A DNA stretch of 43,401 nucleotides from Phycisphaerales bacterium. Lineage in GTDB: Bacteria > Planctomycetota > Phycisphaerae > Phycisphaerales > SM1A02. The position numbers and the translations under genes are program-made. The DNA lies in the NCBI GenBank assembly GCA_013003065.1, contig JABDLI010000232.1, forward strand, positions 1-43,401. Reading direction: 5' to 3'. A model generated the notes under the pieces. It was not told where the DNA came from, did no database searches, and saw only the letters and a list, made by a program, of their open reading frames with translations. Shown piece after piece: positions 14,908 to 20,120 of this stretch; within the stretch, counting starts at the first letter, position 1; every line of letters starts with the position of its first letter.

Positions 14908-15375
14908 ATGCCCACGAAGTACACTTCCCCGTTTGCGACCAGCTTCAAGTCCGCCTGCAAGCGTGGCACCTCCTACAACGTCGCCGTGCAGAACATTGCC
15001 AAGCGTTGCAAGAAGTCCCCCACCGTCGTGTGGGAGTCTCTCTTCAAGGCGGGCCTCTGCTACCGCCAGAAGTTCAACGGCCAGTGGATCTACTTCCCCT
15101 GTGAGGTCAAGAAGGCCACTGCCACCACCTGCAAGAACAGCCAGTGGGAGTGTTGGCAGTGGTTCTGCGAGTGGAGCCTCCTCAACGGCTTCTGCACGCC
15201 GGAGCAGATGAAGAAGAACTGCGGCACGCAGACCACGTTCATGACGTGGTGCCGGAAGTTCTTCTCGAAGCAGTTCACGACCGGCACGACGAAGAAGCGC
15301 ACGACCAAGTCGCGCTCCCTCAAGTTCCCGACCGCCAAGTCGCGAACGACCCGTCGCTACCGCCGCGCGGCGTGA
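14908..15375 (+). CDS. Cysteine-rich basic protein with Lys/Arg/Thr tail, unknown function
   Basis: 155 aa. The ATG has GGAG 9 nt upstream; an in-frame GTG at 14881 is a less likely start. Residues 1-120 hold ten Cys, many aromatic residues and many Lys: SACKRG, KRCKKS, GLCYRQK, YFPCEVK, TTCKNS, WECWQWFCEW, GFCTPEQ, KNCGTQ and TWCRKFF. The last 30 or so residues are almost only Lys, Arg, Thr, Ser (KKRTTKSRS, TTRRYRRAA), much like the tail of the HU-like protein at 19749. Codon use is biased to AAG and AAC, as in highly expressed genes. It has no signal peptide, so it is probably cytoplasmic. A nucleic-acid-binding or structural nucleoid role is my inference; I recognise no family. A hairpin terminator follows. 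Confidence 0.75.
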   Translation: MPTKYTSPFATSFKSACKRGTSYNVAVQNIAKRCKKSPTVVWESLFKAGLCYRQKFNGQWIYFPCEVKKATATTCKNSQWECWQWFCEWSLLNGFCTPEQMKKNCGTQTTFMTWCRKFFSKQFTTGTTKKRTTKSRSLKFPTAKSRTTRRYRRAA

Positions 15376-15403
15376 GCCGAGGGCTGGATCGAGCAATCGA
15401 TCG

Positions 15404-15433
15404 ACGACGCCGGTCCCCTGGGGCCGGCGTCGT
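15404..15433. terminator. Hairpin between convergent genes
   Basis: ACGACGCCGG pairs perfectly with CCGGCGTCGT, with a short GC inner stem. It lies between two convergent stops (15375 plus, 15460 minus) and could serve both. The T-run is weak on both sides. Confidence 0.6.
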
Positions 15434-15459
15434 TCGTTGAAAGCCGGTCGGAGTCGGCT

Positions 15460-15930
15460 TCAGAGCAGGTCGTGCTCGCCGAGAAGGCGGAAATTCTTGT
15501 TGCGGAGAATCTGCCCGGCGAGGATGTGGTCATCCACCGCGAGCGCGATCGTCGGTGATCCGGCGGCCGCGAGCAACAGCGGGTAAGCGAAGCGGATGTT
15601 CAGCTCGGCGCCGAGCAGGCACAGACACATGCCGGAGATCGTCTGCCCCTCGTGGAGCTCCACGACCAGCAGATCCAGCACCGCGAACGTGACTCCGTGA
15701 TCGCGGAGGACGCGTTGGGCGGCGTCCCCGGCGCTGGGAATGAGCCGGACGACCGCGTGATCCGACGATTCGAGCACGCTCAAACCGCACAGATGAACAT
15801 CCGGCGCCTCGTCGAACACCCGGACCAGGTCGAGCAACCGCCCCACCTTGTTCTCGAGGAAGACGCTGAACTGGCGGACGCTCGGAGGGGTGTACCCCTG
15901 GGCTGTCTGCTGCGGAGTCATTTGGCTCAT
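15460..15930 (-). CDS. Tandem ACT-domain regulatory protein
   Basis: 156 aa from the ATG at 15930; the frame extends upstream into antisense DNA. Two ACT-like halves are visible: QFSVFLENKVGRLLDLVRVF to VRLIPSAGD (about 19-70), and ELHEGQTISGMCLCLLGAELNIRFAYPLL to FRLLGEHDLL (about 92-156). Short double-ACT proteins like this are often annotated in planctomycetes as acetolactate-synthase-related regulators. ACT domains bind amino acids, so a sensor or feedback subunit is likely, but no enzyme gene is adjacent. GGAG lies 8 nt before the start, and a TTGCCC-18-TACGCT promoter lies upstream. Confidence 0.85.
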   Translation of the reverse strand: MSQMTPQQTAQGYTPPSVRQFSVFLENKVGRLLDLVRVFDEAPDVHLCGLSVLESSDHAVVRLIPSAGDAAQRVLRDHGVTFAVLDLLVVELHEGQTISGMCLCLLGAELNIRFAYPLLLAAAGSPTIALAVDDHILAGQILRNKNFRLLGEHDLL

Positions 15931-15979
15931 CGATCGCTCCACCGCCCCCGGACCGGAGGGTCGGTGCACCCGAACGCCC

Positions 15980-16009
15980 AGCGTACCCGCGAAGGGGGAC
16001 GAAGGGCAA
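15980..16009 (-). promoter_or_regulatory. Promoter TTGCCC-18-TACGCT for ACT-domain gene
   Basis: On the minus strand the -35 TTGCCC (16009-16004) and -10 TACGCT (15985-15980) have an 18-bp spacer. Transcription near 15973 gives a leader of about 43 nt containing the ribosome-binding GGAG. Confidence 0.55.
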
Positions 16010-16058
16010 GGCAAATTTACCCATCCTGCCATCCGCCTCGTCCGACGCCGGGATCGTC

Positions 16059-16952
16059 TCAGTCGGCGTCGCTCCCGCCCGCGCCGACGGCGGCGCCGAC
16101 GAACTCCAGCCCCGTTGCCTCCGGCGTGACGCCGGCTCGACAGAGGGCCTCGAGGAAGACGCGGACGGCCGCTTCGCCCTGCTCGCCGAATTCGAGCGTC
16201 CAGCGATTGACGTACAGATCGACGAACTCCGCCGCCCGCGCCCGATCCATGCCGCGGGCGTGCGTCAAGGCGCGCTCGATCGACTCGGCCCGATGGGTCA
16301 TCGCGTGCTGGACGCTCCTGCGCAGCAGCGTCGTGACCGCCGCCAGCGTGCCGACGCCGAGCTGCGTCTCCAGATCCCGGCGGATCGCGTTCACCCCGAG
16401 GGGCAGCAGCTGTCCCGACCGGCGTCGCCACCACACGCCGAGATCCTCGATCAGATGAAGTCCCGCGTCGGCGAAGGTGAGCTGCCCCTCGTGAATGACG
16501 AGTCCGGCTTCGCAACGACCCTCCGCGACGACGTCGATGATCTGGTCGAACGGCACGACCTCGTACCGGAACGCGTTGCGGCCCAGCATCAGGCAGAGCC
16601 CGCCGAAGGCGCTCGTCCGTTCACCGGGCACCGCGATGGTGACCTGCCCGACCTCCTCGAGCGTCATCGGCCGTCGGGCGACGAGCTTGGGACCGTATCC
16701 ATCGCCCACCGACGCGCCGCACGAGGTCAGGACGTACCGATCCTGCACCCGCGGCGTCTGCGCGCAGCTCAACGCCGTGATCTCCAGCTCACCGGACTCG
16801 GCGCGGGCGTTCAGCGACTCGATGTCGTCGAGGACGGCCTCGAAGCGGTACGGCCCCGGGTCGATGAACGGGCCGTCCGCGGCCGTGAGCGGCCACCACA
16901 TGAACGCGTCGTCGGGATCGGGGCTGTGGCCCAGCCGGAGGAGGTGCGTCAT
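16059..16952 (-). CDS. mqnD: 1,4-dihydroxy-6-naphthoate synthase, futalosine menaquinone pathway
   Basis: 297 aa. MqnD turns cyclic dehypoxanthine futalosine into 1,4-dihydroxy-6-naphthoate. Signatures: LGHSPDPDDAFMWWPL at the N terminus, ITALSCAQ, GASVGDGYGPKLVARR, IAVPGERTSAFGGLCLML, AGLVIHEGQLTFADAG and DLGVWWRRRSGQLLPLGVNAI. The MqnA/MqnD superfamily shares a periplasmic-binding-protein fold; the SPDPDDAFM start and IHEGQ point to MqnD rather than MqnA, which I could not separate with full certainty. It lies 3 nt after the acyl-CoA-ligase-like gene, so both form one operon. The other mqn genes are outside the window. Confidence 0.88.
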   Translation of the reverse strand: MTHLLRLGHSPDPDDAFMWWPLTAADGPFIDPGPYRFEAVLDDIESLNARAESGELEITALSCAQTPRVQDRYVLTSCGASVGDGYGPKLVARRPMTLEEVGQVTIAVPGERTSAFGGLCLMLGRNAFRYEVVPFDQIIDVVAEGRCEAGLVIHEGQLTFADAGLHLIEDLGVWWRRRSGQLLPLGVNAIRRDLETQLGVGTLAAVTTLLRRSVQHAMTHRAESIERALTHARGMDRARAAEFVDLYVNRWTLEFGEQGEAAVRVFLEALCRAGVTPEATGLEFVGAAVGAGGSDAD

Positions 16953-16955
16953 CGG

Positions 16956-19280: not shown

Positions 19281-19425
19281 TCGTGTGACGGATCAGCGGT
19301 TCGCCTGACCTCGCGGGGCGACGAGGGGAGGCGTCACCGGCCGGGACCGCCGAAAACGCCCGAAAACAGGGCAAAAACGGGGTAAGACCCAGGCACGAGC
19401 CGCGATTCCGACGTTCCGGCGAAAG

Positions 19426-19514
19426 CGGACAGGGCGGGATTCGAACCCGCGGTACCTCTGACGAGATACGCCGGTTTAGCAAACCGGTGCCTTCAGCCAC
19501 TCGGCCACCTGTCC
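19426..19514 (-). tRNA. tRNA-Ser(GCU)
   Basis: Read on the minus strand the acceptor GGACAGG pairs with CCTGTCC, with G as discriminator. The anticodon stem CCGGT/ACCGG encloses loop TTGCTAA (anticodon GCT), a long variable arm fits serine, and the T-arm GCGGG-TTCGAAT-CCCGC is intact. The CCA end is not encoded. It decodes AGC/AGU. Confidence 0.97.
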
Positions 19515-19525
19515 GGGCGGTCGGC

Positions 19526-19554
19526 ATCTTGCCATTGGCGGTTCCCGGCGTCAA
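19526..19554 (-). promoter_or_regulatory. Promoter TTGACG-17-CAAGAT of tRNA-Ser
   Basis: On the minus strand the -35 TTGACG (19554-19549) and -10 CAAGAT (19531-19526) have a 17-bp spacer, placing the transcript start a few bases before the mature tRNA 5' end at 19514. Confidence 0.7.
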
Positions 19555-19639
19555 CTCGGCACTCGCGCTCGCCCGATTCGGCACGAGCATCGCGGGTCCC
19601 CGACCGCCGTTGCGAACCGGTCGAACTTCGGGTGTGTTC

Positions 19640-19661
19640 AAAAAACCCTGCTTTTGCAGGG
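19640..19661 (-). terminator. Intrinsic-terminator-like hairpin, minus strand
   Basis: CCCTGC-TTTT-GCAGGG with six A on its left (19640-19645), which is a hairpin plus six U on the minus strand. It sits 8 bp upstream of the HU -35. It may stop leftward transcription coming toward the tRNA or act as an operator-like palindrome. Confidence 0.5.
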
Positions 19662-19669
19662 CAAAACGC

Positions 19670-19698
19670 TTGTCCGATGCACGCAAGCTCAGTACGCT
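19670..19698 (+). promoter_or_regulatory. Promoter TTGTCC-17-TACGCT of HU-like gene
   Basis: TTGTCC (19670-19675) and TACGCT (19693-19698), spacer 17 bp. The start near 19705 gives a leader of about 44 nt with AAAGGA 7 nt before the ATG. Confidence 0.65.
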
Positions 19699-19748
19699 TC
19701 GCGCAGACAGTGCCATTAAGGCCTGCCATACAGCGAAAGGATTCACAC

Positions 19749-20120
19749 ATGGCAAAGAGAAAGACCAAGAGAAAGACGAAGACGAAGACGCGTCGCAAAT
19801 CCACGACTGAGCTGAAGCCGAGGACGAAGAGTCAGATCTACCGCGACATCTCCGAGGCCACCGACCTCACGCGCGGCGAGGTCGCAAGCGTGTTCGACGC
19901 GATGTCGGACATGATCAAGAAGGACCTCGGCCGCCGCGGCCCCGGCTCGTTCACGGTGCCCGGTCTGATGAAGGTGCTCAAGGTTCACAAGCCGCGTCGC
20001 GCTGCCCGCAAGAACGTGCCGAATCCGTTCCGCCCGGGTGAGTTCATGGACATCGCCGCGAAACCCGCGACCAACGTCGTGAAGGTGCGCGCGCTCAAGC
20101 GACTGAAGGAAATGGTCTAG
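19749..20120 (+). CDS. HU/IHF-family DNA-binding protein with basic N-terminal tail
   Basis: 123 aa against about 90 for typical HU. The first 24 residues are nearly all Lys, Arg and Thr (KRKTKRKTKTKTRRKS), like a eukaryotic histone tail. HU-type sequence follows: SQIYRDISEATDLTRGEVASVFDAMSDMIKKDL, then GRRGPGSFTVPGLMKVLKVHKP, the DNA-binding arm region RAARKNVPNPFRPGEFMDIAAKPA, and VVKVRALKRLKEMV. It would bend and compact DNA. It has its own promoter and a strong terminator, so it is monocistronic and likely highly expressed. AAG/AAC-rich codon use resembles the Cys-rich basic gene at 14908. Confidence 0.93.
   Translation: MAKRKTKRKTKTKTRRKSTTELKPRTKSQIYRDISEATDLTRGEVASVFDAMSDMIKKDLGRRGPGSFTVPGLMKVLKVHKPRRAARKNVPNPFRPGEFMDIAAKPATNVVKVRALKRLKEMV

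Follow-up and report, generated by a model that had tools for sequence, protein, structure and literature searches.

The 155-amino-acid protein encoded at positions 14908 to 15375 of the window (the whole stretch of 43,401 nucleotides of Phycisphaerales DNA analysed here) is, by profile and pattern searches, a member of an unnamed, new family, and it is probably, though far from certainly, an abundant nucleoid-associated protein whose architecture is convergent on that of linker histone H1. A nucleoid role is proposed because the protein has a predicted winged helix, an acid-free, basic and disordered tail, no export signal and very high predicted expression, and because its family is order-specific. 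The preliminary description of this DNA had guessed at a nucleoid protein, and the structural model and comparisons partly support that guess. The gene and its flanking signals were located as follows.

14908..15375, plus strand: gene of the 155-aa basic protein (P0001), with 28 homologues, a core under purifying selection and a single copy in the genome.
14895..14898, plus strand: GGAG Shine-Dalgarno site, 9 nt upstream of the ATG of this gene.
15403..15434, plus strand: strong, terminator-like 3' hairpin past the stop codon, with a weak T tract (-45.3 kcal/mol, z -4.4).

The translation of this reading frame contains 10 Cys, carries a net charge of +26 and ends in a K/R/T tail. That the frame is a genuine gene follows from its 28 homologues and from the dN/dS of its core, about 0.05-0.13 in the close trio L004-L006. 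The core is thus under purifying selection. In the same trio the tail gave about 1-2.4, a value derived from few changes, and this contrast suggests that the tail preserves its charge and length class, not its sequence. Nine alignment columns are invariant in the 28 homologues (M1, F13, G20, L45, F56, N57, P98, Q108 and A155), and K55, G58, W83, G94 and R152 are nearly so.

The earlier reading of the gene as monocistronic is upheld by its layout: a gap of 285 nt separates it from the upstream gene, the GGAG site precedes it, the hairpin follows it, and the downstream neighbour is convergent, which leaves no close co-directional neighbour. Nearly all homologues have GGAG or a near variant ahead of the ATG, and most of those in the host's family, f1, have G+C hairpins at the equivalent spot, many followed by T runs. 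In the homologues of f4, another family of the order (L028, L029 and L031-L033), an inverted repeat, caggtca...tgacctg, is conserved past the stop. Throughout f1 the gene order is also conserved, with a cyclophilin-like gene, the 155-aa gene, a convergent ACT-type gene and mqnA, and from this conserved place it is concluded that the gene is inherited and not mobile. An origin from a phage or plasmid was rejected, as searches of viral contigs, phages, plasmids and PHROGs yielded no relative of the protein.

Members of the family were found exclusively in Phycisphaerales. Relatives of the 155-aa protein were detected in 27 of the 101 genomes around the host, the host included, two of which (G001 and G076) are doubtful owing to in-frame stops and E values above 1e-4. 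A short-pattern scan of 84,980 species returned eight relatives, all of them planctomycete records, and evenly drawn samples of the class and the phylum contained the family in 5/397 and 4/392 genomes, respectively, with the positives confined to the same order. The expectation of the preliminary description that homologues would be limited to the group is therefore borne out in all of these searches. It had also recognised no known family in the protein, and none emerged from Pfam, NCBIfam, PHROG or PDB-sequence searches; profile searches likewise returned no enzyme or export family. Hits on the IL-3 receptor, profilin and the like in the PDB sequence searches were regarded as chance. Among the titles and abstracts listed, the literature offered nothing specific on the protein or on nucleoid proteins of Phycisphaerales.

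Many complete relatives, no fewer than 20 among the searched genomes of f1, lack the family, so it does not form part of chromatin universally, which counts against the nucleoid reading. The idea that cryptic, diverged copies persist at this locus was rejected: in 30 genomes with no relative or a doubtful one, the ACT gene was always present and no remnant lay within 1.5 kb of it. The listed f1 genomes with the gene are larger (median, corrected for completeness, about 4.1 Mb vs 3.0 Mb without it; p 1e-4), which indicates that the gene was gained or lost together with other genes.

The structure of the 155-aa protein was modelled with AlphaFold2 from an input of nine sequences, and the following parts can be distinguished in it.

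14935..15099, plus strand: predicted winged-helix domain, residues 10-64 (AlphaFold2, pLDDT mostly 76-92).
15154..15276, plus strand: predicted three-helix bundle, residues 83-123 (AlphaFold2, pLDDT about 67-77).
15280..15372, plus strand: disordered basic tail, residues 125-155, net charge +12, no D/E, pLDDT below 50.
15361..15372, plus strand: conserved C-terminal end RRAA (R-[RK]-[AV]-A in the family, ARAA once), degron-like in sequence.

In the model, helices 10-18, 23-33 and 38-47 are followed by a hairpin of strands 51-56 and 59-64, and the wing carries the conserved residues R-Q-K-F-N-G-Q-W. The bundle is composed of helices 83-92, 98-104 and 108-123, with W83, Q84, G94, P98 and Q108 conserved, and it is possible that it serves for dimerisation or as a second DNA contact. 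The net charge of the core ranges from +11 to +18 across the family, apart from one member at +35, which is explained by an extra basic N-terminal extension. The protein lacks an N-terminal hydrophobic stretch and an export signal. Foldseek comparison with the PDB retrieved mainly winged-helix repressors (MecI/BlaI, ArsR), all weakly (best E 0.34), and H1 was not among the 50 matches listed, in which generic winged helices with weak scores prevailed. Together with the model, these matches make the winged-helix fold class of the core likely.

The winged helix is a widespread fold, in some cases a binder of RNA or protein, which counts against a nucleoid role. The fold would also suit a winged-helix transcription regulator that recognises a specific sequence and happens to have an unusually basic tail, the second-ranked alternative. 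Besides the repressors that prevail among the Foldseek neighbours, the phage antirepressor domain KilAC (PF03374) scored against three of the 28 members, though not significantly (best E 0.057). The recognition helix (38-47), however, is variable and not basic here, no obvious divergent target operon adjoins the gene, the tail is far more basic than regulators need, and the codon bias described below predicts expression far above the regulator norm, so that we hold a regulator to be quite unlikely.

Eukaryotic linker histones H1/H5 (PF00538) offer a close architectural parallel to the nucleoid protein proposed here. They consist of a small globular domain of winged-helix fold and a long, basic and disordered C-terminal tail, in which composition outweighs sequence, and the 155-aa protein has such a tail behind a domain predicted to be a winged helix. 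Unlike them, it is predicted to contain an additional three-helix bundle that separates the domain from the tail, its family has a tail of K/R/T/S where that of H1 is K/A/P, and none of the 28 members matches the H1/H5 profile at E<=1. We also know of no nucleosomes for the protein to link. Membership of the H1 family thus fails on sequence; it is possible that the protein works like H1, and the likeness is at most convergent.

Absence of the basic tail from close homologues had been named as a refutation of the nucleoid guess. A long, basic C-terminal tail as in H1, disordered in the model (pLDDT below 50), is in fact found in 28/28 homologues. Its length is 31-138 aa and its net charge +9 to +48; 64% of its residues are T, R, K or S, and only one acidic residue occurs among 1774. 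Alignment therefore describes a tail that is conserved in composition and not in sequence, and its dN/dS and variable length are what is expected where composition matters. In H1 tails, too, composition is reported to count over sequence (PMC5974015). The mycobacterial protein MDP1/HupB, an HU with a basic, disordered C-terminal tail, occurs abundantly in the nucleoid and uses that tail to compact DNA (PMC5974015); the 155-aa protein would resemble it in these respects, but has a predicted winged helix where MDP1/HupB has an HU fold, and the two sequences are unrelated. Two variations of the tail region were observed. The homologue L022 (1300-2010) has a basic R/T/K/S stretch at the N-terminus besides its C-terminal tail, and in the f4 homologues a spacer rich in N/G/W/Y precedes the tail. 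Chlamydial Hc1/Hc2 and other bacterial H1-like basic proteins, from a related superphylum, condense DNA and are rich in Lys and poor in acidic residues. Unlike the 155-aa protein with its predicted winged helix, they are not known to have such a domain, and no Pfam match connects them with it.

The last residues of the tail follow a stricter pattern. All 28 homologues, which are mutually non-independent, terminate in AA or VA, nearly always after R-[RK], vs none of 166 conserved neighbouring ORFs, some of which may be shadow frames. In E. coli, ClpXP recognises signals such as RRKKAI of MuA and ALAA of ssrA (PMC8138137), and the C-terminal end of the family resembles both, so that a degron function may be taken as a lead only. 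In a search for the host's own ssrA tag as a comparison, no tmRNA was identified in its incomplete genome (G000), where the two weak Rfam matches were tRNA-Ala and tRNA-Ser. The most far-reaching version of our proposal is that a chromatin protein resembling linker histones arose independently in Phycisphaerales, that its expression equals or surpasses that of ribosomal proteins, and that R-[RK]-[AV]-A is its ClpXP-type degron, so that proteolysis switches compaction off; taken as a whole, this version is unlikely.

Codon usage served to predict expression. In its own genome, the 155-aa gene has a codon adaptation index (CAI) of 0.84, which exceeds the values of the 20 ribosomal proteins and of the 16 neighbours measured, and a random choice among synonymous codons attains it in just 2% of draws. 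The fraction of two-fold codons that end in C is higher in the family than in every conserved neighbour at 22/22 loci, which are related and hence non-independent. In six relatives, C-ending codon use of the family exceeds the ribosomal-protein average, and ribosomal proteins shift in the same direction from the background; with the host's own genome, the bias is above that average in all seven genomes compared. Based on the extreme codon bias, the GGAG site, the strong 3' hairpin and the absence of a close co-directional neighbour, the gene is predicted to be a strongly, indeed very highly, expressed single gene, and its product is probably very abundant, which fits the need of a structural DNA protein.

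The main rival is nevertheless fed by the same evidence. An abundant RNA- or ribosome-binding protein, which contacts rRNA or mRNA through its basic tail and its winged helix, in ribosome hibernation or as an RNA chaperone, would be expected to look similar, given that ribosome-associated proteins also have basic tails and such codon bias and that winged helices and the ROQ domain, present among the weak Foldseek matches, can bind RNA. The gene, however, sits between the cyclophilin-like and ACT/mqnA genes, outside any ribosomal or translation cluster, and many relatives whose genomes are otherwise complete do without it, which suits an accessory component better than a ribosomal one. We rank this explanation first among the alternatives and consider it rather unlikely.

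The preliminary description had attributed to the 155-aa gene and a nearby HU gene an AAG/AAC-rich codon use unlike that of their neighbours. This did not hold, as the sampled neighbours also use AAG for 96% of Lys and AAC for 86% of Asn. The excess of these codons in both genes is due to amino-acid composition, Lys amounting to 13-16% of the two proteins vs 1.2% of the neighbours, and a common origin of the two genes on the ground of a shared odd codon usage was accordingly rejected. In its choice of synonymous codons the HU gene is ordinary (CAI 0.69). The composition of the 155-aa family is itself unusual: in core and tail alike, codons that start with G/C (Ala, Gly, Val, Asp, Glu, Leu) are avoided and Lys, Asn, Thr, Ser, Cys, Phe and Trp are favoured, and the G+C content of the first codon position is 0.32-0.49 vs 0.58-0.79 in neighbours.

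Cysteine, at 6.5% of the 155-aa protein vs 1.1% in its neighbours and about 6% of the family core, had suggested metal binding or disulfides, and C51, C96 and C115 each occur in 18-21 of the 28 homologues, as would be welcome for a metal-binding or redox protein acting through Cys. The ten Cys are not kept, however. Their number varies from 0 to 16, L017 having none, and the commonest Cys columns (51, 90, 96 and 115) are otherwise occupied by A, V, I, F, L or S. No conserved Cys/His ligand set is present across the family. Exchange with hydrophobic residues is the pattern of buried packing positions, not of metal ligands; metal binding or disulfides are thus disfavoured as the family function, the idea of a conserved ten-Cys protein was dropped, and a metal or redox role retains hardly any probability.

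The second basic-tailed protein named in the preliminary description is encoded 5 kb away on the same strand.

19749..20120, plus strand: HU-family protein (P0002, 123 aa) with a 25-residue basic N-terminal tail (PF00216, E 2.7e-8).

The PF00216 profile gave this protein 34.4 bits, above the cut-off of 22.4. Between the 155-aa and HU genes lie, on the minus strand, the ACT-type gene, mqnA and an AMP-ligase gene, and then, on the plus strand, a lipoprotein-like gene; the interval also contains a tRNA-Ser (names are our reading of the sequences). Basic N-terminal extensions are known in some bacterial HU proteins. Two basic-tailed proteins do exist as described, one with an acid-free tail in its last 31 residues and the other, HU, with an N-terminal tail; the two tails are alike in being basic and differ in conservation and context. 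HU homologues were found in 57/61 relatives, and most of them have a basic N-tail of variable length (a few to about 45 residues), no matter if the genome also encodes the 155-aa family. Judged against these homologues, the 123-aa protein is an ordinary HU and does not stand out in its order. If the two genes formed a functional pair of nucleoid proteins, their spacing of 4.4-6.3 kb in G020 and G019 as well would be understandable, but elsewhere HU is on a separate contig or distant (in G031, 905 kb vs 1426 kb), and HU with its basic tail occurs where the 155-aa family does not. Such a pair is very unlikely. The link between the genes, suggested earlier, is therefore weak, and because adjacency is limited to the two relatives seen, gene positions indicate that they are not a unit.

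For the 155-aa protein as a nucleoid protein, we infer DNA binding, abundance, compaction and some function of the C-terminal end, and the following mechanism may be proposed. The winged-helix domain would dock on DNA largely without sequence specificity, and the helical bundle might dimerise. The acid-free K/R/T/S tail would neutralise and bridge adjacent DNA segments, by which the chromosome would be compacted, and the R-[RK]-[AV]-A end is perhaps a separate signal, e.g., for regulated proteolysis.

The phylum to which Phycisphaerales belong is known for unusual nucleoids. If the proposed role is true, Phycisphaerales would own an abundant, lineage-specific chromatin protein in which the H1 architecture was reached independently, and the new family would enlarge the small set of H1-like proteins known from bacteria. 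It would also open a way to study how Phycisphaerales package their chromosome and offer a case of basic, disordered tails evolving by composition.
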